In this document: one piece after another, positions 27,542 through 54,744 of the stretch
How the letters are laid out: every line of letters begins with the position of its first letter
Numbering within the stretch: the first letter of the stretch is position 1
Assembly (NCBI GenBank): GCA_024640085.1
Contig: JAHEFR010000017.1
Location: 1 to 64,000, forward strand
Source of the DNA: Gammaproteobacteria bacterium
Lineage (GTDB): Bacteria; Pseudomonadota; Gammaproteobacteria; Steroidobacterales; XN24
Length of the DNA: 64,000 nucleotides
Direction: 5' to 3'
The notes under the pieces: model-generated
What the model saw: the letters and a program-made list of their open reading frames with translations, nothing else
The model's database searches: none
Told to the model about the DNA's origin: nothing
Made by a program: the position numbers and the translations under genes

Positions 27542-29233
27542 TCACTCCAGGTCCCGGTCAGCCCTCCGCGCGACTCCCCGGCACCGGAGATCCTCCCCCA
27601 GAGCGTGGGCCAGCGGATCGAGCCACTCCAGGTATCGGCGGTGACGGCCGACGGACGTCCGGTAGACCGGGCGCCGCACCTGCTCGTGACTGGCCGTCCC
27701 GATCACCCTCTCCGTTTCGAAGAACCTCAGGCAGGCAGGATCCCAGGGTAACCCGACGAAATCCACGATCTTCCTGGTCTCGGTTTCCGTGTTGGCGACA
27801 AGACGCTCATAGGAGAGCTCCAGGACAGGCAGCGGCAAGACCTCTCGCCAGTGATTCATGATGCGGAGGTATTGTCGGTAGTAGGCCCCGATGTGGGCCA
27901 GGTCGTAGGCAAAAGCCACACCGGCCCCATAGAAATGATGGAAAAAGCACGAAAGGCCGGTATCCATCGGGTCTCGTGTGCAGTGGATCACGCGCGCCTT
28001 GGGGAACAGCAGGGAGGCGAAACCCAGGAATTCGAAGTTCTGCCACATCTTGTCGGTGACCCGGCTGGCCCCTGGGGCGATTTCGTCGAGGCGGGACCCG
28101 TAGGCAGCCGACAGGCGATCCATGTCCATGCTGCTCAGGGCGGCGGCCGATTCGGGGTATTCCAGGGTCCCGGTGGCCGTGGACAGAGCCAGCAGACCCA
28201 GGTCGGACAGCTCACCGGCCCCGTGGATATCCCGGTGGCTGGCGAGGATCTGCTCCACGAGCGACGTACCCGACCTGGGCATGCCCACGATGAAGACGGG
28301 CCGGTCGTCTTCCCGGCGGGTCCGCGGGAGCCCGGCCATGGCCTCGCGACTGAACGCGGCCAGTAGCCGATCCACCAGTCCGGCATAGTGCGCCGGGTCG
28401 AACCGGGCCTGCTTCTGCCGGTTGGCGGTGAGGAAATGTCCCATGGCCGCTGCGGGCTCGCCCCTGGCGTCGTATAGCTCGCCGAGCCGGAAATGGACCT
28501 CCATCCGCCCCTCCCCGTCGTCGAGGGAGGCAAGCCGCGATTCCAGCAGGGCAATTGCGTCGCCGGGCCGGCCGGCCGCGGACATCAAACCCCCGAGTTC
28601 GGCCAGCAACCCTCCGCTGGAGGTCCCGGCCACCGGTTCCAGTAAGGCCAGCCCTTCCTCTGGCCGCCGCCGGAGGCGCGCAAGACGGGCCAGTCCCCGG
28701 AGCGAGCGCTCGTGTCCCGGCGCTCGGGACAGGGCCCGGCGATAACAGGCATCGGCTCCGTCCAGGTCACCGCTGCTCTGCAGCGCCAGGCCCAGGTCCG
28801 CATGCAGATCAGGGGAATCGCCGCCGGCCGAGCGCGCCCGCGTCAGCCACTCCACGGCGGTGCCTGTCAGGCCCTGGTCCAGATGCATCAGACCCATGAG
28901 GTGGGCCGCTCGGGGATCCCTCGGCGCCAGCCGGCAGGCCTCTTCCAGGTGGTCCAGGGCTTCGGCGGGACGCCCCGAGTCACGCAGCAGGGACGCCAGG
29001 GCCAGCCTGGGGTCAGGATCGTCCGGCGACAAGGCGACTGCCCGGGACAATGCCGACTCCGCGCCCGTGGCGTCGCCCGCGCGCCATAATAGCTCGCCGA
29101 GCGTGACCGAGAGCGGGCCTGACTCGCGAGTCAGGGGGACCAGCCGCCTCAGAAGCTCTGTCGCGGCCTGCCGGTCGCCCTCAGCCAGGGCGGCCTTGGC
29201 CGAGGCGAGTAACGCTGCTGTTTCCTGATTCAA
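27542..29233 (-). CDS. TPR-sulfotransferase (leftmost of the island)
   Basis: A 563-residue cytoplasmic protein. Residues about 5-280 are tandem TPR repeats (for example SALSRAVALSPDDPDPRLAL, GADACYRRALSRAPGHERSL); residues about 310-545 are a sulfotransferase domain that uses PAPS. The 5'-phosphosulfate loop is MPRSGTSLVEQIL (Pro319), the catalytic-Glu region is IHGAGELSDLG, and the 3'-phosphate motif is TRDPMDTGLSCF with the conserved Arg and Ser. The family-typical C-terminal motif SHEQVRRPVYRTSVGR is present. It is separated from the rest of the island by the methyltransferase and TonB receptor, and is divergent from the methyltransferase. TPRs probably recruit the acceptor protein. PAPS-synthesis genes are not in the window. 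Confidence 0.9.
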   Translation of the reverse strand: MNQETAALLASAKAALAEGDRQAATELLRRLVPLTRESGPLSVTLGELLWRAGDATGAESALSRAVALSPDDPDPRLALASLLRDSGRPAEALDHLEEACRLAPRDPRAAHLMGLMHLDQGLTGTAVEWLTRARSAGGDSPDLHADLGLALQSSGDLDGADACYRRALSRAPGHERSLRGLARLARLRRRPEEGLALLEPVAGTSSGGLLAELGGLMSAAGRPGDAIALLESRLASLDDGEGRMEVHFRLGELYDARGEPAAAMGHFLTANRQKQARFDPAHYAGLVDRLLAAFSREAMAGLPRTRREDDRPVFIVGMPRSGTSLVEQILASHRDIHGAGELSDLGLLALSTATGTLEYPESAAALSSMDMDRLSAAYGSRLDEIAPGASRVTDKMWQNFEFLGFASLLFPKARVIHCTRDPMDTGLSCFFHHFYGAGVAFAYDLAHIGAYYRQYLRIMNHWREVLPLPVLELSYERLVANTETETRKIVDFVGLPWDPACLRFFETERVIGTASHEQVRRPVYRTSVGRHRRYLEWLDPLAHALGEDLRCRGVARRADRDLE

Positions 29234-29292
29234 GTCGGATGCCGGTCCCGGGGGTGTGTCCGGCGGTCAGCCACGCTGAGGTCGGACGTGCT

Positions 29293-29321
29293 TTGGAACT
29301 TTTGGAGCCTACATATATTAT
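29293..29321 (+). promoter_or_regulatory. Predicted sigma-70 promoter of the methyltransferase gene
   Basis: TTGGAA (29293-29298) and TATTAT (29316-29321) are exactly 17 bp apart in an AT-rich patch. The start of transcription near 29328 gives a leader of about 23 bases before the ATG at 29351, which also argues against the upstream in-frame start at 29288. Confidence 0.55.
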
Positions 29322-29350
29322 CCCGGGTCCTCCAAGCCCGGCGTTCCGCA

Positions 29351-30340
29351 ATGAAGAGCCATCGAGACCAGGACGACAGCTGGAACAAGTACTGGGAGCA
29401 CGGTTTCCTGACCTCGTGCCGGAACGCCTTTGTGGGGAACTACGAAGGCGCGATCAAGGCCCGTTGGGTCTCCTTCTTTGGCGCGCTCGCTTCAGGGGAC
29501 CGGGTCCTGGATATCTGCACCGGAAACGGAGCCATCGCCATGATCGCCAACGAGGTCTCGCGCGACAAGGGCCTGGACCTGGAGATCCACGGCATCGATT
29601 CGGCGGCGATCAGGCCCCACGACACGGTCACCCGGAACAGGGACCTGCTCGAGGGCATCTCGTTCCACCCCTGCACCGCCGCCGAAGATACGGGCTTCGA
29701 AGGCGCCTGCTTCCAGGCCGTGGCCGGCCAATATGCGCTGGAGTACACGGACCTGGAGGGCTGCGCCGCGGAACTGGCACGGATCTCGGCGCCCGCCGCC
29801 CGACTGCAGTTCATCGTCCATCACGACAAGTCTGTCGTCATGGAGACTTCCCGTGAGGAGATCCGCAACGCCGCCCTGTTGTTCAAGGAGACGGGTTTCT
29901 TCGACAGAGCGGCTGCCATCATCGCCATCGTCGGATCGGCCTCCACGCCGGAGGCCCGGCGGTCCCTGGGCTCGGACCCGGAAGCCGAGCGCGCCCGGGA
30001 GCATCTCAACCGGGCCGCGGAAGCCGTCAGCCGGGCAGCAGAGGCCTCCCCTCATCCCCAGCTCCTACAGATGGCGCTTCAGAATGTGGCCGAGGCATAC
30101 CGGCGGTGCGGCTCGCAGGGCATGGACGCAGGCATGACCCTGCTGGCCGAATGCAGGCAGCGGATTTCCGCCAACGTCGAGCGCCTCGAGGACCTCATGG
30201 CCGCGGGCCGCGGCGAGCCCGATGTCGCCCACATGGTCGCCGTCTTTGCCGACCATGGATTCCGGGCCGACCCGCCGGCATTGATCCATCACGAGCGCGG
30301 CCCTTTGATGGGCTGGATGCTGACCGCCCGGCGCCGCTGA
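29351..30340 (+). CDS. Class I SAM-dependent methyltransferase
   Basis: A 329-residue protein with a Rossmann methyltransferase domain (about 40-170). Motif I is DRVLDICTGNGAIAMIAN, followed by an acidic residue at the end of strand 2 (IHGIDSAAI), and a motif II/III region with FQAVAGQYALEYTDLEG. The C-terminal 150 residues are helical and Ala/Glu-rich, with no clear second domain (VAEAYRRCG, MTLLAECRQRISANVERLEDLM). The substrate is unknown. Its place between two sulfotransferase genes and before the TonB receptor could mean it modifies the same targets, but it has its own promoter and this link is only positional. The start is the ATG at 29351 after the predicted promoter. Confidence 0.8.
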   Translation: MKSHRDQDDSWNKYWEHGFLTSCRNAFVGNYEGAIKARWVSFFGALASGDRVLDICTGNGAIAMIANEVSRDKGLDLEIHGIDSAAIRPHDTVTRNRDLLEGISFHPCTAAEDTGFEGACFQAVAGQYALEYTDLEGCAAELARISAPAARLQFIVHHDKSVVMETSREEIRNAALLFKETGFFDRAAAIIAIVGSASTPEARRSLGSDPEAERAREHLNRAAEAVSRAAEASPHPQLLQMALQNVAEAYRRCGSQGMDAGMTLLAECRQRISANVERLEDLMAAGRGEPDVAHMVAVFADHGFRADPPALIHHERGPLMGWMLTARRR

Positions 30341-30776: not shown

Positions 30777-33605
30777 ATGACAGAGCGAAATCCCGTACGG
30801 GACGCTGTTCGTTACGCACTGACGGCTGGTGTGGCGGCATCTTTTGTGGGCGCGCCTGCGGCGACGCTTGCACAGGATGACGTAGCAGTCCAGGACAAGG
30901 TCACGGTGACCGGCTCGCGCATCAAGCGTGTCGACATCGAGGGCCCGTCACCGGTTTCGGTTATTTCCCGCGAGGACATCGATGCCTCCGGCGAAATCTC
31001 CGTGGCCGAAGTGCTGCGCGGCAGTTCCTTCAACACATTCGGTTCTTTCCGGCAGCGGTCCGGTAGTTCCGCCCAGTCCCAGAACGTCGTCAGCCTTCGC
31101 GGCCTCGGCGGGCAGCGGACTCTGGTCCTGATCGACGGGCGTCGTATCACCGGCGCACCGACCTTCGGCGCCGGTTCCGCGACCAACCTGAGCACGATCC
31201 CACTGGCTGCGGTCGAGCGTATCGAGGTCCTGCGCGACGGCGCGTCGGCCATCTACGGGTCCGATGCGGTGGGTGGTGTGATCAACATCATCCTGCGCAA
31301 GGACTACGAGGGCATGCACCTGAGCTACGGCGTCGGCCGGCCCACCCAGACCGGCGGCGACGAGAACAGCGCCAGCATCGTGGGCGGCGTCAGCGGCGCC
31401 AAGGGCAACATCACCTTCGCCTTCGACTGGCAGCAGAAGGACATGATCTACAACGGTGACCGCAGCTTCTCGGCCGTCGGCCTGTCCTCCTACGGCTTCC
31501 CGGGCAGCTATTTCGGGTACCTGACCACCAACGACCCGAGAAACCCGTCGATGGCCTTCTCGACAGATAATGACGGCGACGGAACGGCTGACGCCGACCT
31601 GGTCCCGGCCTATCTGTCCGTCGGCACGTTCCCGGATCCGCGTTGCCCCGCCAATCTCGGTGAAAGCGAGACCTATCCCGAGTCCCAGTACCGGGCGCCC
31701 CGTTGCCGGTTCAACTACGCCGGCACCTCGGCCAATGAAGCGGACAACAACACCAAGAGCTTCTTCATTAACGGCAACTACGACATCAACGAGTCGACGA
31801 CGTTCGTGACCCGCGGGACCTTCTCGTTCAACGAGAACTTCGGCCGGTACGCGCCGAGCCCGTTCACGGCGCCGTTCCCGACCATTTCCGCCGCCAACCC
31901 CAACAACCCGACGATCCCCGGCAGCACCAGCGCCGAGAACGGCCAGCCGTTCCAGGGCACTTCGGTGATGGCGGACACGGATGGCGACGGGACGGGTGAT
32001 ACCCAGGTCGATGGGCCGTTTGACGTCTCCGCGTTCTACCGGAACGTCCCGGGCGGCTTCCGCGACACCCACATCGACGACACCCTTGTCGACTACATGG
32101 CCGGTCTCCAGGGAACCGTGGACTGGCTCGGCGGCATGGATTGGGAACTGGGCGCCCAGTGGAGCAAGCAGTGGAGCAATTCCGCGTCTCCGGGTCTCGG
32201 TCTCGCTCCGAACATCCAGGCGGCCATCGACAGCGGCACGTTCGACATGTTTGCCCAGAACACCGCATGGGACACCAACCCGTCTCAGGCGGCGGCCCAG
32301 CAGGCGGCGGCTCTCACCGGCACCTTCGACGCCTCGACACGTATCGTGAGCTTCGACGGCCAGGTGACGTTCGACGCCTTCCAGATGAAGAACGGCGCCG
32401 TGCCCGTGGCCCTCGGCTTCGAGTACCGCGACGACAAGTTCGAGCAGGAATATGACGAGCAGTCGAATGCCGGCAACATCCAGGGATCGGCAGGTGGCCA
32501 GGACGTGACGGGTGCCCGCGTGGTCCAGTCGCTGTTCGCCGAGACCACTATCCCGGTACTGAGCATGCTGGACTTCAACATCGCCGGACGCTACGACCGC
32601 TACAACGACTTCGGCACCACCGTGAACCCGAAGCTCAGCGTGGCCTTCCGGCCGCTGGACAGCCTGCTGCTGCGCGGCTCCTACGGCACCGGCTTCCGGG
32701 CCCCCAGCATGTCGGAGCTCTACAGCGGCGCGTCACAGTCCTTCGACAACGCCATCGACGCCCGGGCCTGCGGCAACAACGCCTTCGGCGACCCCGCCAC
32801 GGGGCGGCTGGATTCGCAGTACGCGACGGACGATGTGCCTCCGGGCAACCCCTGCCTCTCCACCCAGTACCAGAACTTCCAGGGCGGAAATCGGGACCTC
32901 TCCGCCGAGAAGTCCAACTCCTGGAATGTGGGCCTGGTGTGGAACCCGCTGGACGACCTGTCGGTCGCGCTGGACTGGTTCAATATCGAACTCGAGGACG
33001 AGATCGGCATTGCGTCCATGCAGGCGCTGATGGACCAGGAGTACGCGCTGGATCCGTCGCCCCCGTCGGGCGGAACGGTCGGCGAGGTCACCCGTTTCCA
33101 GAACGGCAACGTGTGGTTCCTGAACCGGGTTAACTCCAACATCGCCAAGCGCAAGACCGACGGTCTGGACATCGAGGGCAGCTACGCGTTCTCGATTGGC
33201 TCCATCGGCGACTTCCGCGCCGGAATCCAGTGGACCTACGTCAACGAGTACGAGCGTGACGAGGGCAACGGCGACGGCCTGCAGCCGCCCGCCTTCTTCG
33301 CCCCCGACAACCGTGGCACCGGTTCGCTGAACTGGTCTCTCGGAGACTTCAGCGCCAACGCGATCTGGAACTACATTTCCTCGGCGGACAACAAGATCCA
33401 GGACTACCACCTGGACAACTGGTCCACCCTGGATCTCTCGGTCGGGTACGCCACGCCATGGAACGGCCTGGTCACGATCGGCGCGCGGAACGTCTTCGAC
33501 GAAGATCCGCCGACGAGCCAGGGCCTGTCGAACCCGTACTACTCGAACCAGCTGCACGACGTGTATGGCCGCGTGCCGTACCTCCGTTACGAGCAGGATC
33601 TCTGA
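30777..33605 (+). CDS. TonB-dependent outer membrane receptor
   Basis: A 942-residue active transporter of the outer membrane. Signal peptide residues 1-33 (ending PAATLAQ), TonB-box-like region after it (DKVTVTGSRIKR), plug domain about 45-160 (SVISREDIDASGEISVAEVL, VSLRGLGGQRTLVLIDGRR, IEVLRDGASAIYGSDAVGGV), then a 22-strand-type barrel with the receptor signature LRGSYGTGFRAPSMSEL and a C-terminal strand ending YLRYEQDL. Two DxDGDGxxD calcium-type loops lie in the barrel part near residues 263 and 400. It uses TonB-ExbBD energy to import an unknown large ligand. It begins the sulfotransferase island but is cut off from the downstream operon by a strong terminator. The ATG at 30777 has an ideal ribosome site. 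Confidence 0.95.
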   Translation: MTERNPVRDAVRYALTAGVAASFVGAPAATLAQDDVAVQDKVTVTGSRIKRVDIEGPSPVSVISREDIDASGEISVAEVLRGSSFNTFGSFRQRSGSSAQSQNVVSLRGLGGQRTLVLIDGRRITGAPTFGAGSATNLSTIPLAAVERIEVLRDGASAIYGSDAVGGVINIILRKDYEGMHLSYGVGRPTQTGGDENSASIVGGVSGAKGNITFAFDWQQKDMIYNGDRSFSAVGLSSYGFPGSYFGYLTTNDPRNPSMAFSTDNDGDGTADADLVPAYLSVGTFPDPRCPANLGESETYPESQYRAPRCRFNYAGTSANEADNNTKSFFINGNYDINESTTFVTRGTFSFNENFGRYAPSPFTAPFPTISAANPNNPTIPGSTSAENGQPFQGTSVMADTDGDGTGDTQVDGPFDVSAFYRNVPGGFRDTHIDDTLVDYMAGLQGTVDWLGGMDWELGAQWSKQWSNSASPGLGLAPNIQAAIDSGTFDMFAQNTAWDTNPSQAAAQQAAALTGTFDASTRIVSFDGQVTFDAFQMKNGAVPVALGFEYRDDKFEQEYDEQSNAGNIQGSAGGQDVTGARVVQSLFAETTIPVLSMLDFNIAGRYDRYNDFGTTVNPKLSVAFRPLDSLLLRGSYGTGFRAPSMSELYSGASQSFDNAIDARACGNNAFGDPATGRLDSQYATDDVPPGNPCLSTQYQNFQGGNRDLSAEKSNSWNVGLVWNPLDDLSVALDWFNIELEDEIGIASMQALMDQEYALDPSPPSGGTVGEVTRFQNGNVWFLNRVNSNIAKRKTDGLDIEGSYAFSIGSIGDFRAGIQWTYVNEYERDEGNGDGLQPPAFFAPDNRGTGSLNWSLGDFSANAIWNYISSADNKIQDYHLDNWSTLDLSVGYATPWNGLVTIGARNVFDEDPPTSQGLSNPYYSNQLHDVYGRVPYLRYEQDL

Positions 33606-33636
33606 TCGGGTAGATCGGAATAAGGTCTCTGACCTG

Positions 33637-33668
33637 AGATGGCCCGCCTCGGCGGGCCATCTTTTTTT
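33637..33668 (+). terminator. Strong intrinsic terminator after the TonB receptor
   Basis: A ten-base GC-rich stem (GATGGCCCGC, 33638-33647, and its complement 33652-33661) with a CTCG loop is followed by seven T residues (33662-33668). It separates transcription of the receptor from the oxygenase-sulfotransferase operon that begins at 33771. Confidence 0.93.
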
Positions 33669-33770
33669 GCGCCGACTCAAACGCCCATGGCGCCTCGCCG
33701 CCCCGGATTCCGCCTGCGCGACTTGATATCATTGGCGGCTTGATCATCAGCCAGCGGACGATACCCGTAA

Positions 33771-36731: not shown

Positions 36732-36732
36732 C

Positions 36733-37377
36733 ATGATCAGGATCACGGATCTGTTCACCACGCCCATGATCGAGGCCCAGATGGCGGATCACGAGGACGT
36801 GTGCGGGCAACTCACGCAACTGTTCCTGGAAAAGGAGCAGCAAGGAGACGAATTCCGGTATCACAAGCAACGCGAGACCCAGTTCGGGCCTCTGTTCGAG
36901 AGCAAGTTCGACCTGTTCCGCTGGCAGGACCCACCGGTGGTGAGCGTCGCCCGGTTCTGCCACGCCAGCCTGGGCGAAGTCCTGAAGCAGCTGACGAAAT
37001 TCTCCGATGAGGAGCTCGGCAAGCTGCGGTTCAATTACCACGCCTGGTTCCACGTCACACGCAACGGCGGCTTCCAGGGGCTGCACAACCACCAGAATGC
37101 CTCCTGGTCCGGCATCTTCTGCGTCGACCCGGGAGACGAGTTGCCGGACCAGCCGGAGAGTGGCCTGGTGCGGTTCCACGATCCGCGCTGGTGTTCCTGG
37201 TTCCACTCGGAACCGGGCAACCTCGGCCTGAAGATGCCGTATCACCACGGTGGCTTCGACGTGACTCACCGGGCGGGCCGCCTGGTGATCTTCCCATCGT
37301 TCCTCATGCACGAGATCTTCGTCTACCGGGGCGAGCGCCCGCGCGTCGTCATCGCATTCAACTGCAGTATTACCTGA
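36733..37377 (+). CDS. 2OG/Fe(II) oxygenase sandwiched between sulfotransferases
   Basis: A 214-residue oxygenase of the TIGR02466-like group. Metal ligands: His118 and His120 in LHNHQNASWSGIF, distal His193 in SFLMHEIFVY, and the 2-oxoglutarate Arg in RPRVVIAFN. The long insertion between them contains a Trp/His-rich stretch (DPRWCSWFHSEPGN). The gene starts one base after the stop of the fusion gene and ends two bases before the next sulfotransferase, so the three are translated as a unit. The start MIRITDLFTTPMIEA at 36733 is typical of the family and is preceded by GAGGAC. It probably hydroxylates the same substrate that the flanking sulfotransferases act on. Confidence 0.88.
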   Translation: MIRITDLFTTPMIEAQMADHEDVCGQLTQLFLEKEQQGDEFRYHKQRETQFGPLFESKFDLFRWQDPPVVSVARFCHASLGEVLKQLTKFSDEELGKLRFNYHAWFHVTRNGGFQGLHNHQNASWSGIFCVDPGDELPDQPESGLVRFHDPRWCSWFHSEPGNLGLKMPYHHGGFDVTHRAGRLVIFPSFLMHEIFVYRGERPRVVIAFNCSIT

Positions 37378-37379
37378 CC

Positions 37380-43008: not shown

Positions 43009-43013
43009 CGTCC

Positions 43014-46845: not shown

Positions 46846-46858
46846 CTCGACATCCCGC

Positions 46859-48730
46859 TCAACCCTCAATGAATCCCCCGGCCCGGAGGGAATCCACCAG
46901 TGGTCCGAGGTGCTCCCGATAGCGGTCCGAGCGGCCGATGGATGAGGTATACAGCGGCCGCCTGACCTGGGCGTGGCTGGCGGTCCGTACAATCCGCGGG
47001 TTCTCGTAAAACCGCAAACAGTCCTCCTCCCAATCGAGCCCGATGAATTCGACCAGGCGTCTGCTCTCTCCTTCCAGGTCCTCGACGATGTCCTCGTATG
47101 CCACGGACGTCATCCTGAGCCCGCTCACCGCCTGCCAGTGGTCCATCAGCCGCCGGTACTGGCCGTAGTAATGACCGATATCAGCCAGATCGTAGGAGAA
47201 CGGCGGGCCGGCGGTGCCAAAACTCTGCTGGTAGCAGGACATCCCTGTGTCTACCGGATCACGGAGGCAATGGATAACGCGGGCCTTCGGGAACATCAGC
47301 TCGATCAACCCCAGGTGCTCGAAGTTCTGCCACATCTTGTCTGTGACCCGGGCCACCTTGAGCCTGCTGCCGCCGAGTCGCGAAAGGTACGGGCCTGAGC
47401 TTTCCCGCAGCTTGCGGATATCCAGGTCGAGGACGCATTCCGGATACGGGACGTTGTCGTCGTTGGACCCCAGCCGGATGGCGAGCAACCCGATGTCCCG
47501 CAGTTCCCCCGCCCCATGGATCCTGGAATGGGTCGCCAGGATCTGCTCCACCAGGGAGGTACCGGATCGTGGCATGCCGACGATGAAGACCGGTGTCTCC
47601 GTCTCGCGCCCCGAGCGCGGCAGGGAGACCAGGCGCTCCGCGCTGAAGGTGTCCATCAGCCGGCCCACATCACGCTCGCGGCCCTCCCTCGAGTATCGGG
47701 CGCCCCTGAGCCGGTTGGCCTTGCTGTATGCAACAAAGGCCCGCTCGTACTCGCCCATGTCGTCCAGCAGATCGCCCAGGGTGAACATGACTGCCGTGCG
47801 CTCGATGTCGTTCAGCCCGTCCGCCGTCGCCAGAGGCGCGAGATGGCGCAGCGCTTCCCGTCCCCTCTCCATCCGGCGCAGGAGATTGGCGTAGGCCACA
47901 TGCATATTGGGCGTCGCCGTGCCCCGCTTCAGGTGAGACGCGAGCACGCTGACTCCCTGATCATAGCGCTCCGTGATCTCCAGCACCCCCGCCAGTCCGG
48001 CCAGCGACGGGCTGTGATCCGCCTTGATCTGGAGAGCGGTTTCGAAGCCCGAAATCGCCCCTTCTAGATCGCCCATGGCCTGCAGGGCTGACGCCAGATT
48101 GCTGTAGGCGTCGGGATCCGTGACCCCCGCGGCGATCACCTGCCGGTAGGTGTAGACTGCCTCGTCGAAACGTCCCACCTGGTGATACGCCAGACCCAGG
48201 TTGTACCGCCCGGCGACGTTGACCATGTCCTCCTTGAGTCCCCTTTCCAGCAACCTGATGGCCGCTTCCGGCTTGTCCTGCTCGAACACGGCTGCGCCGA
48301 GGTTCAGGTTGGCGGCGCTGTGTTCCGGATCACGGGCCAGGGCCTTGCGGAAGCACTGCTCCGCCGCGTCCTCGTAGCCGGTACGGCGCAGCACGTGCCC
48401 GAGATTGTTGTAGGCGTCGGCGAACGTGGGGTCGAGTTCGAGGGCGCGCCGGAAATCCGCCTCGGCCTCGGTCAGCTGGCCGCGATTATTCCTGAGGCGC
48501 CCGCGCTGGTTGAGGATCTTCGGGTCCTCCGGGTCCAGCGCGATGGCAGCATTGATGTACTCCTCCGCCTCCTCCAGCCGGCGCTCCCGGAGCCTGATCT
48601 CCGCCATCAGGCGCAGGGCACGGACGTGATCCGGCCGCTGTGCCAGCACTGTATGACAGATCGACTCGGCTTCCTGAACCCGGCGATCGTCGATGAAGCG
48701 CTCGGCCTTCTGAAGATCCATCTGGAACAT
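46859..48730 (-). CDS. TPR-sulfotransferase, first gene of the five-gene minus-strand run
   Basis: A 623-residue protein. TPRs span about 5-330 (AEEYINAAIALDPEDPKIL, AEADFRRALELDPTFADAYN). The sulfotransferase domain has MPRSGTSLVEQILATHSR, IHGAGELRDIG, VTDKMWQNFEHLGL, LRDPVDTGMSCYQ and VRRPLYTSSIGRS. It is the closest match here to the protein at 27542, which shares the TDKMWQNFEFLGF-like stretch and GTSLVEQ loop, suggesting a recent relationship. GGGAGG eight bases before the ATG at 48730 is the best ribosome site in the run, fitting its place as the promoter-proximal gene. Confidence 0.92.
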   Translation of the reverse strand: MFQMDLQKAERFIDDRRVQEAESICHTVLAQRPDHVRALRLMAEIRLRERRLEEAEEYINAAIALDPEDPKILNQRGRLRNNRGQLTEAEADFRRALELDPTFADAYNNLGHVLRRTGYEDAAEQCFRKALARDPEHSAANLNLGAAVFEQDKPEAAIRLLERGLKEDMVNVAGRYNLGLAYHQVGRFDEAVYTYRQVIAAGVTDPDAYSNLASALQAMGDLEGAISGFETALQIKADHSPSLAGLAGVLEITERYDQGVSVLASHLKRGTATPNMHVAYANLLRRMERGREALRHLAPLATADGLNDIERTAVMFTLGDLLDDMGEYERAFVAYSKANRLRGARYSREGRERDVGRLMDTFSAERLVSLPRSGRETETPVFIVGMPRSGTSLVEQILATHSRIHGAGELRDIGLLAIRLGSNDDNVPYPECVLDLDIRKLRESSGPYLSRLGGSRLKVARVTDKMWQNFEHLGLIELMFPKARVIHCLRDPVDTGMSCYQQSFGTAGPPFSYDLADIGHYYGQYRRLMDHWQAVSGLRMTSVAYEDIVEDLEGESRRLVEFIGLDWEEDCLRFYENPRIVRTASHAQVRRPLYTSSIGRSDRYREHLGPLVDSLRAGGFIEG

Positions 48731-49133: not shown

Positions 49134-50243
49134 ATGACCCGGCCGTCGCTCTCTGACAAAACCGACTCGCAGCGCCTTCAGGAGGCGATGCTGACCAGCC
49201 CGGCGCTGTTCCTGAGGGACGTGGAGCCCCTGCGAGGCGTGGCGGTGTTCACGCCCATGACGGAGGAGTCCTACCGGGCATCGTCCTTCCTGGACAATCG
49301 TATCGTCCGTGCCGGCGATAAGGACGTGATCGCCGACCTCGACGACCTCATGGACCTGGCGTCGAGACACCCGGGCGGACGACGCATCATCCACTACCTG
49401 TTCCATGTGGGTCACTGCGGCTCCACCCTGCTCTCCAGGATCCTCGGTGAGCGGACTTGCTACCTGGCCTTGCGGGAGCCCCCTCTGCTGATGGGCCTGT
49501 CACGCAGCGCCCGCGCCCTCGGACGTCCAGGTTTCCCCATATCGGAGCAGAGATGGGAGTCCCTCAAGGCACTGAGTCTGATGACGCTGGGAAAGACCTG
49601 GCGCTCGGGCCAGACGCCCCTGGTCAAGCCCACCAGCCACGCTGGCAATCTGATTCCAACACTGATGCGCCACAGCGGGCAGGAACGGGCCGTACTCCTC
49701 TACGTGGACCTGGAGACCTACCTCGCCACCATGCTTCGCCCTCACGCCCGTCGAGAGACCCGGCTGTACGCCAGGGACTTCCGGGTGCGGGAATTTTCAT
49801 CGCTTGTGCCTGGCGCGCCGCAGACCACGGACGAATACACCGAAGGACAGCTGGCCGCCATGAGCTGGCTCATGCACGCCCGGGAGATGGCCGCCGCGCT
49901 CGACGATCCTGACATCGCGCCCCGGTGCCTGCCCGTGCATTTCGAGTCCTTCGTGGCGGACCCACGAAGCGTCACCGCCCAGATCTTCGAATTTCTCGGG
50001 CCGCCTCTGACCGCGGGTGAAATGCCTCCGGGCGAGCCGCGGTGGCTTTCGGTGGCGGCCAAGGCACCCGGGGAGGCTTACTCCGCCGGTGACCGCGAGC
50101 GGGAGCTCGCTCTCAGCCGATCTGAAAACGCCGACGGGATCGCAGACGGACTGGCGTGGGCATCCGGGGCCTGCGAGGCCGACCCGTTCACTGGCCTGGC
50201 GGAGCGGTTCCCTCCTGCCAGGGTACATCCAGCGCGGCCTTGA
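49134..50243 (+). CDS. Sulfotransferase-like protein without TPRs
   Basis: A 369-residue protein. The 5'-loop candidate is FHVGHCGSTLLSRILGE (near residue 90), typical of stand-alone bacterial sulfotransferase-family proteins, followed by ALREPPLLMGL. The expected 3'-phosphate motif (R-D-P...S) is replaced by LYVDLETYLATML, so PAPS binding is uncertain. It has no TPR, and lies alone on the plus strand between two minus-strand sulfotransferase operons. No Shine-Dalgarno sequence precedes the ATG at 49134. The 3' end overlaps the convergent gene at 50188 by 56 bases. Its role in the island may be structural or catalytic; the sequence does not decide. Confidence 0.75.
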   Translation: MTRPSLSDKTDSQRLQEAMLTSPALFLRDVEPLRGVAVFTPMTEESYRASSFLDNRIVRAGDKDVIADLDDLMDLASRHPGGRRIIHYLFHVGHCGSTLLSRILGERTCYLALREPPLLMGLSRSARALGRPGFPISEQRWESLKALSLMTLGKTWRSGQTPLVKPTSHAGNLIPTLMRHSGQERAVLLYVDLETYLATMLRPHARRETRLYARDFRVREFSSLVPGAPQTTDEYTEGQLAAMSWLMHAREMAAALDDPDIAPRCLPVHFESFVADPRSVTAQIFEFLGPPLTAGEMPPGEPRWLSVAAKAPGEAYSAGDRERELALSRSENADGIADGLAWASGACEADPFTGLAERFPPARVHPARP

Positions 50244-52011
50244 GGGGCCCGAGCCACCGGCTGTAGCGCCGCCATCGCCCGACGCTCGACTCATAGACGG
50301 GCTGCCGGACCTGCAGATGGCTCGCCGTACGCACTACGCGCCGGCTTTCATGGAACCGGAGGCAGGCATCCTCCCATTCCAGATCGAGGAACTCCAACAT
50401 GGCGCGGGCGCCGGCCTCCGGTTCGGATACCAGATCCTCGTAGGCCACCTTGTGGATCGGGAGATCCAGCACGCGCTGCCAATGCTCCATCAGCCGCCGA
50501 TAGCCCTGGTAGTACAGTCCGATGCAGCTCAGGTCTCTCGTGAATCCCATGCCGGGACTCTGGAAGTCCTGCTGGAAGCACGACAGCCCCGTATCCATCG
50601 GATCGCGAATGCAGTGGATGACGTGGGCCCCCGGGAACAGAAGCTGTACCAGGCCCAGGTTCAGGAAGTTGGCCGGCAACTTGTCGATCGATCTAAGCGC
50701 GGAGGTCCCGTCGGTGCCGTCCCCGTCCAGATATTCAAAGGCAACACGGGAAAGCTCCGCCACATCCGTGCTCTCCAGGCATTCCGGCCAGCGAGTCGCC
50801 GCCGGCCCACCGGACAGGCGGCGCGGTAGCTGATAGAAATCGGTGCGCTCCCCACAGGCGTGGACCCGGGAATGAGAGCCGAGTATCTGCTCCACCAGGG
50901 ACGTGCCGGACCGGGGCATGCCGACGATGAACACCGGCCGGTCCGATTCGCATCCGGATCCCGGCAGCGCCCGCAGCCGCTCGGGGGTGAAGAAACCGAT
51001 CAGGCGATGGACGGTGTCGCGATATCCCTCGGGATCGAAATCGACCGGCTGTGCATGGTTCGCAGCCTGGAAAGCCCCGAACGCCGCCTCGTAGTCGCCA
51101 CCAGCTTCCGAAATCCGCCCGTGCAGGTTCAGCGCCGCGGCCCTAATAGCCGGGTCCATCCCGGAGGGATCGACATTGTCGAGCCGGGCCTCGGCCTCTT
51201 CGCGCCTGTCGAGGGCGAAGAGTTGACGCGCCTCGGACACCACCGCCCAGTCGGGAACCCGGGACCAGCCGAACCCACGGAGCAATGTCAGGACTTCTTC
51301 GCTGCGCCCCTGCAGTTCGAGCACGTGGGTCAGGGACGCGGCCGCCACCGGGTCGCCGGGTTTCCTTTCGAGGGCCCGGCGCAACAGCCGCTCGGCGCGT
51401 TCGTACCTGCCCATGGCATCCATAACGGCGCCCAACCCGGTCAGGGCGTCTGCATGATCCGGATCGATGCTCAGGGCTTCGCCATAGGCCGCCTCTGCTT
51501 CGTCTTGACGGCCGGTGCCCTGGAGGGCGTCGCCGAGGAGACAGCGCACCCCGGGGTTTGCCGGGTCCACCGCCGCCGCGTCGCGCAACATCGCGAGCCC
51601 GGATTCGACCTCGCCCCGTGAGATCTCCACGGAAGCCAGGTTACCGAGGGCCCGGGCGGAGGCCGGATCAATTGATACCGCCTTTCGGAACGCGCCGGCG
51701 GCTCCTTCCAGGTCGCCCAGACCGCGGCGGACATGACCGAGGCCGTTCCACGCGTCGGCGGATCCCGGTTCGAGGCGTACCGCCTCCTCGAAAGCGCTGT
51801 GTGCCGCCGGGAGGCGGCGCAAGTTGTTTAGCGCCCTGCCCAACTGCACATGGACCGATGCCATCTCCGGCGCCAGTGCCGCTGCCTGTTCCAGGAGAGG
51901 AAGAGCCAAGTCTGGTCGACCCTGGTCGACGGACCGGCGAGCATTTTCGGTGAGCTGTCCGGCGCGTTCGCCCGGTGAGGCGGTGGATCCGGATCCGCCG
52001 CCGGGACTCAT
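50188..52011 (-). CDS. TPR-sulfotransferase with TPST-like CGERT motif
   Basis: A 607-residue protein, third gene of the second sulfotransferase-oxygenase operon. TPRs about 15-325; sulfotransferase domain about 360-600 with MPRSGTSLVEQILGSHSR, VHACGERTDFYQLP (Glu388), IRDPMDTGLSCFQQ and VRQPVYESSVGRWRRY. The CGERT sequence is closer to the catalytic Glu region of animal tyrosylprotein sulfotransferases (CGEET) than the GAGEL of the paralogues. The ATG overlaps the oxygenase stop as ATGA (52008-52011), so translation is coupled. A longer open frame to 52125 overlaps the oxygenase and is not the start. Confidence 0.92.
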   Translation of the reverse strand: MSPGGGSGSTASPGERAGQLTENARRSVDQGRPDLALPLLEQAAALAPEMASVHVQLGRALNNLRRLPAAHSAFEEAVRLEPGSADAWNGLGHVRRGLGDLEGAAGAFRKAVSIDPASARALGNLASVEISRGEVESGLAMLRDAAAVDPANPGVRCLLGDALQGTGRQDEAEAAYGEALSIDPDHADALTGLGAVMDAMGRYERAERLLRRALERKPGDPVAAASLTHVLELQGRSEEVLTLLRGFGWSRVPDWAVVSEARQLFALDRREEAEARLDNVDPSGMDPAIRAAALNLHGRISEAGGDYEAAFGAFQAANHAQPVDFDPEGYRDTVHRLIGFFTPERLRALPGSGCESDRPVFIVGMPRSGTSLVEQILGSHSRVHACGERTDFYQLPRRLSGGPAATRWPECLESTDVAELSRVAFEYLDGDGTDGTSALRSIDKLPANFLNLGLVQLLFPGAHVIHCIRDPMDTGLSCFQQDFQSPGMGFTRDLSCIGLYYQGYRRLMEHWQRVLDLPIHKVAYEDLVSEPEAGARAMLEFLDLEWEDACLRFHESRRVVRTASHLQVRQPVYESSVGRWRRYSRWLGPLKAALDVPWQEGTAPPGQ

Positions 52012-52625
52012 CGGAGCGGATAGGAGAACCGGAACGCGTCTTCCGGGTCCTGGAGATTCAGGTAACTCGTGACGATGTACTTGTCCCCGGACACCGGCGG
52101 CTCCCCGCAATGTTCGTACATCCACATGGGCGGAAACATCACCAGTCGGCCTTCGCGGGGCGCGATCCGGGGACCGAGGACCGGGAATACGGTCTCACCG
52201 CCCTCATCCACAGTATTGAGGTACCAGAGGAAGGCCACGATCCGGACGGAGGTCTTGTGGTCGAAGGCGTCGAAATGCAGCGGGAATCGATCCTGGCTCG
52301 ATGCCCCGGCCCTGTATTTCTTTATCTTCAGGTGCTCGAAGGCGCCGGAGATCTTTCTTGACAGCATCTTCGCCTGGGGCACCGACGCAAAATCACGCAG
52401 GTGCCTGACCATGTTCTCGACGAAGGCCGTCTCGATCTCCCTCCACTCGGGACGGGGATTACGGGTAACGATGTTCTCTACCCAGGTGTCCTGTCTCGGA
52501 CGTCGGAACTGGCCGTCCGTATCCGCTTCGAACAACTCGATCACTTGTCGGCACACGGTGGGATCGATGGCGGCGTCGTAGACACGAATCAATCCGGTCA
52601 GAGGGATGTCACCGTCAGCAGTCAT
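52008..52625 (-). CDS. Prolyl-4-hydroxylase-like 2OG/Fe(II) oxygenase between two sulfotransferases
   Basis: A 205-residue oxygenase of the P4H/2OG-FeII_Oxy_3 type, different from the TIGR02466-like enzymes elsewhere in the window. The triad is HFDAF (His117, Asp119) and His172 in WMYEHCGEPP, with the 2-oxoglutarate-binding Lys in SGDKYIVTSYL. The stretch FLWYLNTVDEGGETVFP is the classical P4H core. The gene overlaps the upstream sulfotransferase by 11 bases and the downstream one by four, so it is physically locked between them. The start is the ATG at 52625. Hydroxylation of Pro, Lys or Asn on a protein partner is plausible. Confidence 0.9.
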   Translation of the reverse strand: MTADGDIPLTGLIRVYDAAIDPTVCRQVIELFEADTDGQFRRPRQDTWVENIVTRNPRPEWREIETAFVENMVRHLRDFASVPQAKMLSRKISGAFEHLKIKKYRAGASSQDRFPLHFDAFDHKTSVRIVAFLWYLNTVDEGGETVFPVLGPRIAPREGRLVMFPPMWMYEHCGEPPVSGDKYIVTSYLNLQDPEDAFRFSYPLR

Positions 52626-54744
52626 AGCCGAATCTCTCGATGTGCGGCGCCAGTAGCCCCATGTGAGGCTCCAGCTGCGCCCGGTAGGCGCGCCAGCGTC
52701 CGCTCGCCCTGGCATAGACCGGCTCCGCCACCTGATGGTAGCTGTTGGTGTTGATCCGGCCCCGTTCGGCTACCCGCCCGGTATAGTCCAGAACGGCCGG
52801 CTCCCAGGGCACGCCGAGGAATTCCAGGACACGCCGGACCTCGGACTCCATGTCATCCACCAGCGACTCGTATCGGACGGCGTGCCATTGCAACGGGAAT
52901 TTCGAGGCGTAGATATGCCATAGACTCATCACCTTGTCGTAGAGCCTGACCGACTCCTCGAGCGTGTAGAAATTGGCGAACGCAGCGCTGACGGTGAAAT
53001 GCTGCATGAAATTGGACAAGACCACGTCGCAGGGATGCCTGAGGCAGAACACGAATCTGGCGTCCGGGAACAATCGCCAGAGCATACCGGCGTGAACCGT
53101 CCGGATGGGCATCTTGTCGATCACCACGCCGTCGAAGCCGTCGGGGACGAACTGGGCCAACGCGTCCAGGTAGTCATGCCGGAGGCCGGCGATGTCATCT
53201 TCAGTCAGCACTGCCAGCTGATCGGGGAACCCCCGCGGACTCTGCCGTAGCTTGTCGATCACAGGCATGATGGTGAACTGTTCCTCCACCGTCGCGATCC
53301 CGGGATGGCTGTCCAGAACGACGTCCAGCAGCGTCGTGCCCGAGCGCGGAAAGCCGAACATAAACACCGGACGCTCGCCCTCCAGCGCGGGAACAGGAGT
53401 CCAGGCACCGGTATCCATGGTCGAGAAGAATCCATTGAGCCGATCCAGCATATCGAGGAATCGTTTCGGATCGGCCTCCCGGGCCCGGACCGTCTGGCTC
53501 GCCAGCCGGTTCGCCTCGCAGAAATTCCCGAAGGCCTCTCCGGCCTCGCCCGCCCGGTCGAGGAGATAGCCCAGCTCGTAATGCACCTGCTCCGCTAGAC
53601 GCGGATCCAGTGCCGCCGGATCCAGAAGTCGGAGGCGGGCGAGGCCCTCCTCAACCCTGCCCTGGCGGCGGTCTGCCTTGGCGGCCTCGAGATTCAGCCG
53701 GGCGTGACCAGGATCCAGCTCCAGACCTTTCTCCAGCATCGCCTGCATATCGGCAAGCCGGTTGGTCTCCTCGTACAGCGCGGCCAGTTCCGCATAGACC
53801 TGAACCAGCCCCTCGTCCAGCTCCAGCGCGCGCAAGAGGCTGCGCTCCGCTTCCTCGCTGCGGCGCTGTTCGACGTGAACCAGCCCGAGATTCAAATGTA
53901 GCACCGGATTCTCCGGGTCGACTTCGATGGCATCCCGATAGGTGTCTGCGGCAACCTTCAGCTGCCCCTTGGTGTGGTAGGCGATAGCCAGGTTGAGCAG
54001 CGTGGGGACGTGCCTGGGCCGAGCCTCCCGGGCCTTCTCCAGACACTCCATGCCCCCGTCCAGATCTCCCAGAACCGTCATCACTGTGCCCAGGTTGTAC
54101 CTGGCCGAAGCATTGTCCGGATCGATCATCAGCGCGTGATCGAACGCGTCCCGGGCTTCCTCCATCTTCCCCTGGGCGCGGTACACGTGTCCGAGGTGAT
54201 CGTAGGCCACGGCAAAGTCCGGACGGATGATCACGGCCCGCCGGAACGCGTCGGCTGCCTCTTCGAAACGGCCCATGTTGTTCAGCGCGCGACCCATGGT
54301 GTCATAGGCCCCGGCGTAATTGGGGTCCGCCTTCAGCGCCTGGAAACAGCTGTCGATGGCCGCTTCGAACTCGCTCTTGCGAAGCAGCAGTTCCGCCAGG
54401 TTGTTGTGCCCCGCGGCCAGATCCGGGCGGAGGGCAACCGCCTGACCGTAAGCCGTCGCGGCCTCATCGAACTTGCCGCGGACCCTGAGGAGGTTGCCCA
54501 GGCTATTCAGGAAGGCGCCTTTCATGGGATCGATGGCGATCGCCTTTCGGACCAGGCGCTCCGCGTCGTCGAGGCGGCCCTCCTTGGCGTCGATGTTCCC
54601 CAGGCTGTGTAGCGCGTCGGCATGATCGGGCTGCAGTTGCAGCACTTCCATCAGTCGGGATCTCGCCGTGGCCAGGTCGCCCCGTACCTGCAGCCTCTGG
54701 GCCAGGCGGTAGATCTTTGTGATGGAGTTGCTTGGATCTTTCAT
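52615..54744 (-). CDS. TPR-sulfotransferase, first gene of the second sulfotransferase-oxygenase operon
   Basis: A 709-residue protein with about twelve TPRs (residues 5-430, regular 34-residue units such as AADAFRRAVIIRPDFAVAYD) and a sulfotransferase domain from about 455: FPRSGTTLLDVVLDSHPG, ATVEEQFTIMP (Glu487, Glu488), LRHPCDVVLSNFM and VAEPVYARASGRWRAY. This subtype differs from the GAGEL paralogues in having an acidic pair followed by an IMP tail, which resembles the EETRIIP of eukaryotic tyrosylprotein sulfotransferases. I chose the ATG at 54744; a frame open to 54924 would add a leader that contains one arm of an inverted repeat. Confidence 0.9.
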   Translation of the reverse strand: MKDPSNSITKIYRLAQRLQVRGDLATARSRLMEVLQLQPDHADALHSLGNIDAKEGRLDDAERLVRKAIAIDPMKGAFLNSLGNLLRVRGKFDEAATAYGQAVALRPDLAAGHNNLAELLLRKSEFEAAIDSCFQALKADPNYAGAYDTMGRALNNMGRFEEAADAFRRAVIIRPDFAVAYDHLGHVYRAQGKMEEARDAFDHALMIDPDNASARYNLGTVMTVLGDLDGGMECLEKAREARPRHVPTLLNLAIAYHTKGQLKVAADTYRDAIEVDPENPVLHLNLGLVHVEQRRSEEAERSLLRALELDEGLVQVYAELAALYEETNRLADMQAMLEKGLELDPGHARLNLEAAKADRRQGRVEEGLARLRLLDPAALDPRLAEQVHYELGYLLDRAGEAGEAFGNFCEANRLASQTVRAREADPKRFLDMLDRLNGFFSTMDTGAWTPVPALEGERPVFMFGFPRSGTTLLDVVLDSHPGIATVEEQFTIMPVIDKLRQSPRGFPDQLAVLTEDDIAGLRHDYLDALAQFVPDGFDGVVIDKMPIRTVHAGMLWRLFPDARFVFCLRHPCDVVLSNFMQHFTVSAAFANFYTLEESVRLYDKVMSLWHIYASKFPLQWHAVRYESLVDDMESEVRRVLEFLGVPWEPAVLDYTGRVAERGRINTNSYHQVAEPVYARASGRWRAYRAQLEPHMGLLAPHIERFGYDC

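Follow-up and report, generated by a model that had tools for sequence, protein, structure and literature searches.

A gene island of TPR-linked, TPST-like sulfotransferases and 2-oxoglutarate oxygenases beside a TonB-dependent receptor: a candidate system for modification of exported proteins

Introduction

Sulfated proteins are a familiar feature of animals and plants, and to our knowledge very few cases have been described in bacteria. Two other kinds of protein-modifying enzymes are relevant here: O-GlcNAc transferase (OGT) holds polypeptides with its TPR superhelix, while glycosyltransferases of the HMW1C and TibC type are dedicated cytosolic enzymes encoded beside the large outer-membrane protein that they modify. 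In the RaxST–RaxX system of Xanthomonas, a bacterial sulfotransferase (ST) acts on a ribosomal product to give a tyrosine-sulfated peptide (PMC6637879). Methanobactin operons, as described in PMC3621798, harbor the TonB-dependent transporter MbnT and, in some of them, the sulfotransferase MbnS beside peptide-modifying enzymes.

The gene block analyzed here lies in a 64,000-nt stretch of DNA (the window) and is composed of about 15 genes: ten TPR-STs, one ST-like gene (STL), two stand-alone 2-oxoglutarate (2OG) oxygenases, an oxygenase–ST fusion (ST2ox, counted among the ten TPR-STs), a TonB-dependent receptor (TBDR), and a methyltransferase. Searches of an open-access library listed no described system of such composition, in agreement with the original prediction.

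Results

Composition and extent of the island

All the parts named in the original prediction were borne out by Pfam (Table 1), except that the methyltransferase stayed under the cut-off there (20.3 bits versus 27) and was backed by a four-orthologue profile matching class I methyltransferases (1xxl, E 6e-8). The ten TPR-STs each combined TPRs with Sulfotransfer_3 (PF13469; 109 to 146 bits, cut-off 27), and STL was the eleventh PF13469 gene. The whole genome (3.19 Mb) gave 18 PF13469 matches, 13 of which came from these 11 genes (ST3 and ST4 gave two matches each), and thus the clustering is not due to chance. The genome also encoded an APS kinase, and the island TBDR was one of its six PF00593 matches. 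The island had been placed at 27542–54744: ST10 indeed ended at 54744, but the conserved block continued past this point, with exported TPR, FG-GAP/UnbV_ASPIC, and cytochrome genes up to the end of window and contig (CYT had 936 aa at its full length on the contig). Several ORFs were too long at the 5' end, and the likely starts are listed.

Table 1. Features of the island and of its continuation, with coordinates on the 64,000-nt window
Feature	Coordinates	Strand	Basis
ST1, TPR + Sulfotransfer_3, full catalytic set	27542..29233	-	Pfam 140.7 bits
MT, class I SAM methyltransferase	29351..30340 (ORF from 29288)	+	Pfam Methyltransf_25 20.3 bits; orthologue profile
TBDR	30777..33605 (ORF from 30747)	+	TonB_dep_Rec_b-barrel 134 bits, Plug 87 bits
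ST2ox, TPR–2OG-FeII_Oxy_5–TPR–Sulfotransfer_3, 986 aa	33771..36731	+	Pfam; 8-sequence alignment
OX1, stand-alone 2OG-FeII_Oxy_5 oxygenase	36733..37377 (ORF from 36664)	+	Pfam 57.1 bits
ST3, TPR-ST	37380..38981 (ORF from 37191)	+	Pfam 126 bits
ST4, TPR-ST	38978..40912 (ORF to 41200)	-	Pfam 129 bits
ST5, TPR-ST, GMPRSGKS	41023..43263, start uncertain	-	Pfam 119.7 bits
ST6, TPR-ST	43014..44984 (ORF to 45032)	-	Pfam 145 bits
ST7, TPR-ST, GAPRSGKS	44974..46845 (ORF to 46992)	-	Pfam 109 bits
ST8, TPR-ST	46859..48730	-	Pfam 146 bits; ST domain model
STL, ST-like, without TPR match	49134..50243	+	PF13469 32.9 bits (cut-off 27)
ST9, TPR-ST	50188..52011 (ORF to 52125)	-	Pfam 143 bits
OX2, 2OG-FeII_Oxy_3, prolyl-4-hydroxylase-like	52008..52625 (ORF to 52715)	-	Pfam 44 bits
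ST10, TPR-ST	52615..54744 (ORF to 54924)	-	Pfam 130 bits
Small, probably exported protein, weak VasI similarity	55182..55793	+	25.0 bits, under cut-off
DUF4826 protein	55806..56285	-	Pfam 74.6 bits
TPRx, exported TPR protein (true start downstream of ORF start)	56327..58285	-	Pfam TPRs; hydrophobic signal-like segment
FG1, FG-GAP + UnbV_ASPIC (ORF over-extended)	58015..60282	-	Pfam
FG2, FG-GAP + UnbV_ASPIC, N-terminal membrane anchor	59823..61706	-	Pfam
CYT, membrane-anchored five-CXXCH cytochrome + TPR	61703..64000, cut by window end	-	Pfam Cytochrome_C554 24.7 bits; L137

Sulfotransferases

As judged from profiles and a predicted structure, the closest counterparts of the island STs among solved structures are the eukaryotic protein-tyrosine sulfotransferases (TPSTs), and all ten TPR-STs are assigned to the branch nearest to these enzymes: (i) the ST profile matched TPSTs best in the PDB (E 6e-26 to 4e-25), followed by a polyketide-synthase ST (1e-15), and (ii) the predicted ST domain of ST8 (pLDDT 84.3) matched TPST1 with a Z of 23.4 over 240 residues at 2.9 A, followed among the matches listed by 4gox (Z 19.1) and heparan 3-OST (14.8). 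The TPR part had designed TPR and OGT as its best PDB matches, OGT being the best natural one.

The residue table of the STs displayed the catalytic Glu, which we take to correspond to E99 in TPST2, in 72/72 rows, together with the catalytic Lys in 63/72 and the 3'-PB Arg in 72/72. The PAPS motifs originally reported for the STs held for eight of the ten island TPR-STs, in which the PAPS set (5'-PSB loop Thr/Ser, catalytic Lys, and 3'-PB Arg/Ser) was complete, but ST5 and ST7 had lost PAPS and catalytic residues and gained a Walker-A-like pattern: (i) GMPRSGKS, catalytic Lys to Thr, and 3'-PB Ser to Arg in ST5 and (ii) GAPRSGKS, catalytic Lys to Thr, and 3'-PB Ser to Ala in ST7. The same substitutions (loop Thr to Lys, Lys to Thr, and Ser to Arg/Ala) were present in 7/7 orthologue rows, and ST5 and ST7 would be either pseudo-enzymes or users of another nucleotide. 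The substrate-side Arg used by TPSTs for acidic tyrosine sites, presumably R101, was not conserved across the ten island STs (R, T, T, S, N, R, F, A, P, and R), and the island STs are therefore named TPST-like rather than filed as TPSTs.

Oxygenases

2OG-FeII_Oxy_5 was matched inside ST2ox (85 bits) and in OX1 (57 bits), and 2OG-FeII_Oxy_3 in OX2 (44 bits), all over the Pfam cut-off. The metal triads attributed to these oxygenases took two forms: the canonical HxD...H was found in OX2 alone (H147, D149, and H202 in ORF numbering from the orthologue alignment; K212 was also present), while OX1 (H141, H143, and H216) and ST2ox (H393, H395, and H458 in the 8-sequence alignment) displayed an invariant HxH...H. 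By profile and model comparison, the stand-alone oxygenases resemble protein prolyl hydroxylases: OX2 was nearest to bacterial prolyl 4-hydroxylase (3itq/5hv0, E 1.6e-7), and the OX1 model (pLDDT 80.9) had as best Foldseek matches 3bvc and 2rg4 (two uncharacterised proteins), then Pseudomonas P4H and PHD2. This Pseudomonas P4H has also been solved with EF-Tu. The matches of the OX1 model agree with the double-stranded beta-helix that characterizes 2OG oxygenases.

ST2ox placed hydroxylase and ST domains on one polypeptide, and was matched over both domains in 10/396 genomes of the order. Most TPR-Oxy_5 proteins in the wider scan stood without an ST, and Oxy_5–ST linkage outside the island was 0/43 in the seven genomes counted.

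Conservation in relatives

The original prediction had named absence of conserved linkage in relatives as one of its refutations; conserved linkage was seen, and the prediction thus stood on this point. The gene order of the island recurred in relatives. Every island ST grouped with same-family counterparts (for example, ST1 with those of G004 and G001 at 100/96, and the ST6 orthologues at 100/99), and STL had orthologues in G004, G003, and G001. In two further families, several ST counterparts were not firmly grouped with island STs, and in G001, a genome of the same genus, the ST island was distributed over four locations and the FG-GAP module occupied a fifth.

A TBDR was located upstream of ST2ox in 9/9 loci showing ST2ox. 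Among 20 stretches from 19 relatives, seven had the gene for a TBDR or plug-domain protein immediately upstream of a strong TPR-ST. Such proximity also fits uptake of a sulfated compound, which counts against a protein-modification reading.

The small, probably exported protein and the DUF4826 protein beyond ST10 occupied the same place in relatives. A copy of FG1, whose only PDB match at E <= 0.1 was cartilage acidic protein 1 (E 3.6e-16), was found inside the ST array in G001, G003, G004, G028, and G051 and adjoining STs in G015 and G046. The FG-GAP/cytochrome module was present without the ST island in G005, and thus it need not be a substrate.

Homologous sulfotransferases on plasmids and in other classes

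Plasmid records contained 48 homologous STs, 20 of which were inspected: 14 had a TBDR, autotransporter, or giant adhesin at a distance of no more than 2.5 kb, and six had no such surface-protein neighbor. The control windows, 300 kb in total, contained one TBDR, no annotated autotransporters, and one FHA-type fragment with its transporter. These data suggest that, in Alpha-, Beta-, and Gammaproteobacteria, genes for TPR-linked TPST-like STs frequently neighbor those for outer-membrane receptors, autotransporters, and, in a single instance, a giant adhesin. A family 8 (Enterobacter, Lelliottia, and Kluyvera) or family 9 (Azospirillum) glycosyltransferase was found between ST and autotransporter, and a Comamonas locus carried a cadherin-domain protein, TPR-ST, TolC, ABC, HlyD, and APS kinase as consecutive genes.

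A second hydroxylase–ST fusion, with PF05118 (Asp/Asn beta-hydroxylase, unrelated to Oxy_5), was identified in two other classes: in Asticcacaulis, with a TBDR nearby, and in Diaphorobacter, where its neighbor is an IPTL-CTERM protein. The two fusions suggest that hydroxylation and sulfation have been coupled more than once by gene fusion.

Discussion

We favor, with modest confidence, the reading that the island is a post-translational modification system predicted to hydroxylate and sulfate candidate exported or outer-membrane proteins in the cytoplasm, the compartment that supplies PAPS and 2-oxoglutarate. There, the TPR arms would hold newly made, unfolded export precursors, whose side chains would be hydroxylated by the oxygenases, and the STs would sulfate tyrosines or other hydroxyls, perhaps also newly installed ones, before the modified precursor is exported. 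The neighboring TBDR would be the first candidate substrate, followed by the FG-GAP/UnbV and TPR exported proteins of the locus; separate STs may serve separate sites or substrates, a division of labor that would account for the maintenance of every paralogue as a distinct lineage.

That both enzyme kinds act on one protein set, perhaps surface or exported proteins including the receptor, had been proposed originally. The conserved linkage, the two fusions, and the surface-protein neighbors of the STs are consistent with this, but the lack of Oxy_5–ST linkage outside the island in the seven genomes counted, the six plasmid STs lacking such neighbors, and the tyrosine data speak against a simple form of it: no acidic-tyrosine signature was found, ST-paired TBDRs being no richer than unpaired ones (p = 0.89), and the island exported proteins had few acidic tyrosines (0 to 4 each).

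A methanobactin-like role, in which a small compound or peptide bearing hydroxyl and sulfate groups (e.g., a metal binder) would be produced by the island, exported, and re-imported via the TBDR, would fit the constant place of the TBDR upstream of ST2ox and the methyltransferase within the block; methanobactin operons likewise pair a TonB-dependent transporter with, in some of them, a sulfotransferase (PMC3621798). We regard it as unlikely: the Pfam-scanned block proteins included no NRPS, PKS, or exporter; the island genes abut or overlap and thus leave little room for a precursor gene (small ORFs were listed for 54.8–56.7 kb); MbnS is a PF00685 protein according to that source, versus the TPR-PF13469 of the TPST branch here; ten STs are many for one compound; and the neighbors of related STs include autotransporters and an adhesin, proteins not known to act in import. 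The STs might instead sulfate a surface polysaccharide, LPS, or protein-borne glycan, as the heparan STs among the further relatives of the fold and the glycosyltransferases beside some homologous STs could indicate; this is distinctly improbable, given that no glycosyltransferases were present among the scanned island proteins, that fold and sequence were closer to TPST than to heparan STs, and that a glycan ST would not normally be expected to come with TPR arms and hydroxylases.

We also give little credence to a mere side-by-side multiplication of TPR enzymes with unrelated roles, under which the neighborhood would say little about function. The tandem paralogues, the dispersal in G001, and the loosely grouped counterparts in two families fit such an origin, but the genes, scattered or not, were kept as orthologues within the family, hydroxylase–ST fusion occurred twice independently, and proximity to TBDRs or autotransporters recurred in other classes.

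A more specific form of the protein-modification reading, which we put forward only as a long shot, is hydroxylation-gated sulfation: a 2OG oxygenase would first hydroxylate Asp, Asn, or Pro in a protein awaiting export. The hydroxyl thus created would then be sulfated by a TPST-like domain, which in the island is in part carried by the TPR-armed chain of the oxygenase itself, and outer-membrane receptors and adhesins would end up with sulfo-hydroxy residues. Such pairing would have evolved on two or more occasions, with oxygenases of unrelated families (Oxy_5 in the island, and Asp/Asn beta-hydroxylase in Asticcacaulis and Diaphorobacter), and ST5 and ST7, their PAPS loop turned back to Walker-A, may add phosphate or be nucleotide-controlled subunits.

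If TPR-linked TPST-like STs are indeed often placed near surface proteins, and hydroxylation and sulfation were repeatedly coupled, then Gram-negative bacteria would modify their surface proteins in a way that has been overlooked so far, which might matter for phage receptors, nutrient receptors, and adhesion; the small units in named strains of Pseudoalteromonas, Asticcacaulis, and Diaphorobacter make the protein-sulfation idea directly testable.

Comparison with known systems

TPST1/TPST2 were the closest solved relatives in profile and fold, with the PAPS loop and catalytic Glu/Lys kept in 8/10 island TPR-STs, but the island STs are bacterial, presumably cytosolic, fused to long TPR arms, and variable at the substrate-side Arg. 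The likeness to RaxST–RaxX is by description: in Comamonas, too, genes for type I secretion accompany an ST, while none of these genes occurred among the scanned island proteins (small ORFs were read at 54.8–56.7 kb). Compared to methanobactin operons, the island harbored ten TPR-STs plus 2OG oxygenases, with no exporters among the scanned proteins and no MbnA precursor or MbnB/MbnC among the Pfam-scanned block genes. The HMW1C/TibC type differs in adding sugar, instead of the sulfate and hydroxyl predicted here. OGT has an unrelated catalytic domain, and it shares with the island enzymes the arrangement of a TPR superhelix and a C-terminal transferase on one chain.

Composition and layout of the island

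The island was confirmed by Pfam scans to have the composition originally predicted: (i) ten proteins with Sulfotransfer_3 plus TPR (the sulfotransferases ST1 to ST10), and a sulfotransferase-like protein (STL) with a weaker match; (ii) two stand-alone 2OG oxygenases (OX1 and OX2), one of Oxy_5 type and one of Oxy_3 type, plus an Oxy_5 domain internal to the 986-aa fusion protein ST2ox; and (iii) a TonB-dependent receptor (TBDR) and a weakly scoring methyltransferase (MT) that was backed by a profile. The genome (3.19 Mb, 73 contigs) contained 18 PF13469 matches, 13 of them (from 11 genes) inside the island, six TBDR barrel matches, and an APS kinase domain within a 594-aa frame, so that PAPS can be made.

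Coordinates of the island and related features (window positions unless a locus is named)
Feature	Position	Strand	Remark
Island	~27542-54744		
Row TBDR-ST2ox-OX1-ST3		+	Short gaps/overlaps
Row ST10-OX2-ST9-(STL on plus)-ST8-ST7-ST6-ST5-ST4		-	Short gaps/overlaps
ST2ox	33771-36731	+	TPR/2OG-FeII_Oxy_5/Sulfotransfer_3 fusion
ST5	41023-43263	-	Reciprocal Thr/Lys swap
ST7	44974-46845	-	Reciprocal Thr/Lys swap
STL	49134-50243	+	Sulfotransferase-like
Conserved FG-GAP/cytochrome module	56327-64000; L137, L131, L133, L141		Comparison of relatives
2OG-FeII_Oxy_5 gene	16355-16966		Stand-alone
Calcineurin-like phosphoesterase	24197-26104		Weak kinase-like C-terminus
TBDR/plug directly upstream of TPR-ST	L144, L145, L148, L154, L155, L157, L158		Stretches from relatives
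Asticcacaulis fusion frame	L193:6772-8562		Public gene table starts at 7687

A small precursor peptide was also sought within the island; none was named, because gene junctions were tight and the sole larger gap (54.9-56.3 kb, the one for which small ORFs were listed) was already occupied by two genes with counterparts in relatives, one for a DUF4826 protein and one for a protein with weak similarity to VasI. The scanned genes of the left flank (13-27 kb) were ordinary, e.g., glycogen synthesis, and syntenic with those of G004, a genome of the same family. This flank also held another Oxy_5 gene ~10 kb left of the island (12 such domain matches in the genome) and a phosphoesterase, with a counterpart in G004, whose C-terminus gave Fam20C/HipA-like kinase matches of 18.3 and 16.7 bits, both below cut-off.

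Conservation among relatives

The island order was repeated almost entirely in G004, with one additional ST, and mostly in G003, whose contig began within the TBDR and in which no ST7 was found; partial islands occurred in G028, G051, G015, G056, and G046, which belong to two further families. The predicted linkage was thus conserved. G001 (same genus) had ST genes at four places and the FG-GAP module at a fifth (L037-L040, L142; single contig); some of its frames were shortened or over-long, and the split may be either a true rearrangement or an assembly error.

In the tree of 72 ST domains, each island ST shared its group with two or more counterparts (G001, G003, or G004), with within-family support of 100/99 for ST6 (four rows), 100/100 for ST7 (three rows), and 100/98 for ST9 (four rows). 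Cross-family grouping was firm for ST2ox (seven rows, 99/88) and ST10 (five rows, 100/100) and less firm for ST8; several other further-family counterparts, plus ST3 of G003, fell outside firm groups.

ST2ox was rare: of the order's 396 genomes, 11 had a match at E <= 1e-110, which covered both domains in 10. A wider scan for TPR-Oxy_5 proteins gave 161 loci, of which 80 were kept. The fusion was seen in nine loci (L051-L058 and L060; L056 only as far as the contig end), all with a TBDR upstream (<=0.35 kb in eight, 1.55 kb in L053), and in L061, a frame-broken relative, the upstream TBDR was 2.4 kb away. Among the remaining 70 loci, an ST was present in seven stretches, so TPR-Oxy_5 proteins elsewhere mostly lacked an ST; a TBDR was present in one (L102), a count of TBDRs similar to that of the window that dissimilar ones could escape. 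L056 (LJNP01000063.1, titled Parcubacteria SG8_24) displayed MT, TBDR, and the first part of ST2ox, 64-76% identical to those of the window, and this contig is therefore probably misbinned and gammaproteobacterial.

Linkage of sulfotransferases with receptors and oxygenases

Among the ST matches listed from seven genomes, the partners located within 5 kb of an ST were TBDR in 12/82 (expected 1.9), Oxy_5 domain in 14/59 (expected 1.2), and UnbV_ASPIC in 8/40 (expected 1.0); these rows were not independent, since orthologous islands were counted once per genome. Outside the island, for which island contigs were hand-named, the corresponding counts were 5/74, 0/43, and 1/21. In these seven genomes, the oxygenase-ST co-occurrence originally predicted was thus present overall but, for Oxy_5 domains, not outside the island. 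One of 83 TBDR rows was left out for falling below cut-off, and fragments of split ST matches were not counted. Loci L001-L030 (~3.2-3.7 kb) did not have the length needed for neighbourhood counts. Around strong TPR-ST matches, 20 stretches were hand-picked from 19 relatives (G021 twice), and in seven the gene immediately preceding the ST, co-oriented and <100 bp away, encoded a TBDR/plug-domain protein (plug domain only in L157); the upstream side of L143 lay beyond the contig end, and the G056 stretch, with a nearby TBDR known beforehand, was not among the seven.

Plasmid neighbourhoods and a second fusion

An ST8-domain homologue was found by tblastn in 48 plasmid records, and 20 of these (H1-H8, H10, H11, H13-H15, H23, H30, H33, H35-H38), hand-chosen in favour of the best matches, were inspected through gene tables that, controls included, were incomplete by their own description. 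Within 2.5 kb of the ST there was (i) a TBDR in seven records, namely two from Novosphingobium, three of the 20 from Pseudoalteromonas, and one each from Asticcacaulis and Komagataeibacter (2.0 kb away, other genes intervening), and (ii) an autotransporter in six, from Kluyvera, Lelliottia, Enterobacter (the last two loci near-identical), Thalassospira, Pacificitalea, and Azospirillum. Comamonas had a cadherin-domain protein (~13 kb) followed by TPR-ST, TolC, ABC, HlyD, and APS kinase, and six of the 20 records had no TBDR, autotransporter, or adhesin within 2.5 kb. The TPR part was Pfam-checked in the Asticcacaulis and Comamonas loci and taken from annotation or length in the others. Six 50-kb control windows from six of the same records contained one TBDR and one FHA-type fragment plus its transporter, and no annotated autotransporter. 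No importer role is known for autotransporters or adhesins; what these neighbours have in common would thus be that they are large proteins, exposed at the surface or secreted, an argument for the protein itself as substrate. In the enterobacterial plasmids L202, L203, and L211, an autotransporter stood in a compact unit with a family 8 glycosyltransferase and a TPR-annotated ST, and it may be both glycosylated and sulfated.

Asticcacaulis sp. DW145 displayed the row TBDR-Sulfotransfer_2-Asp_Arg_Hydrox-TPR-ST followed by a 596-aa fusion frame in which Asp_Arg_Hydrox scored 54.5 bits and Sulfotransfer_3 scored 100 bits; in the public gene table this gene starts later, so that only the ST is shown and the beta-hydroxylase domain is missed. 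Both domains were also present in a homologue over the full length (38.5%) from Diaphorobacter sp. HDW4B, whose gene diverges from that of an IPTL-CTERM protein, and in Eleftheria terrae an ST was directly preceded by a 2OG-FeII_Oxy_3 protein, with a PEP-CTERM protein nearby. From these cases, hydroxylase-ST coupling appears to have more than one origin.

FG-GAP/cytochrome module

From 56.3 kb, the genes to the right of the island encoded a TPR protein that is exported, FG1 and FG2 (both FG-GAP/UnbV_ASPIC proteins), a five-CXXCH membrane cytochrome with TPRs, and then, further along the contig, a large protein with TPR, FG-GAP, and UnbV, a lipoprotein as judged from its G004 and G003 counterparts; relatives added a nitrilase-like carbon-nitrogen hydrolase. 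The pair of FG1 and the TPR protein was located within the ST array in five relatives and adjoined its STs in two more. FG-GAP/UnbV genes were nevertheless rejected as an obligate island partner, because G005 had the module without the fused ST2ox and its listed STs were located elsewhere. The module may be a source of substrates, yet it is separable from the ST island.

Altered PAPS site of ST5 and ST7

The PAPS motifs predicted for the TPR-STs were complete in eight of ten and incomplete in ST5 and ST7. The seven ST5/ST7 orthologue rows, alone among the 72, had the PAPS-loop Thr replaced by Lys and the catalytic Lys by Thr, together with 3'-PB Ser replaced by Arg or Ala; two other rows had one odd residue each at the catalytic-Lys/3'-PB-Ser positions. 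The resulting loop GxPRxGKS fits Walker-A GxxxxGK[ST] in all seven. ST5 and ST7 formed a single clade (98/92), and the swap was thus probably a single event, retained since. Judged from sequence, these proteins could be pseudo-enzymes or could use a changed nucleotide.

Substrate signature and relation to known enzymes

Acidic tyrosines did not differ between ST-paired (n=16) and unpaired (n=20) TBDRs (p = 0.89), a weak test because the two sets were unlike in source genomes and in TBDR types, the pairing of a few members was only a matter of a shared stretch, and part of the frames were cut or over-extended. Total Tyr showed a weak trend (p = 0.08), and paired TBDRs were longer (892 vs 750 aa) and Asn-richer. 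The exported island proteins had few acidic tyrosines (0-4 each), counted without a background set.

No account of such a system was found in searches of an open-access collection (PMC3621798 and PMC3174227 included), from which subscription papers are mostly, and bioRxiv preprints wholly, absent. A hydroxylation-sulfation mechanism is proposed on the basis of enzyme kinship, fusions, and neighbourhoods. As for the predicted oxygenase metal triads, OX2, similar to bacterial prolyl 4-hydroxylases (E 1.6e-7), kept HxD...H, but the invariant residues of OX1 were HxH...H; the best solved folds for the OX1 model (pLDDT 80.9) were two uncharacterised proteins, followed by Pseudomonas P4H and PHD2. 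The VIA-align rows were informative for the listed families only. The TPR portion of the STs matched best a designed TPR and OGT. The profile of the ten ST domains matched best the protein-tyrosine sulfotransferases 8w5z, TPST1, and TPST2 (E 6e-26 to 4e-25); a polyketide-synthase ST came next at 1e-15, and SULTs began at 4e-10. The ST8 domain model (pLDDT 84.3) aligned with TPST1 at Z 23.4 (2.9 A, 240 residues), ahead of 4gox (Z 19.1) and heparan 3-O-STs (Z 14.8).
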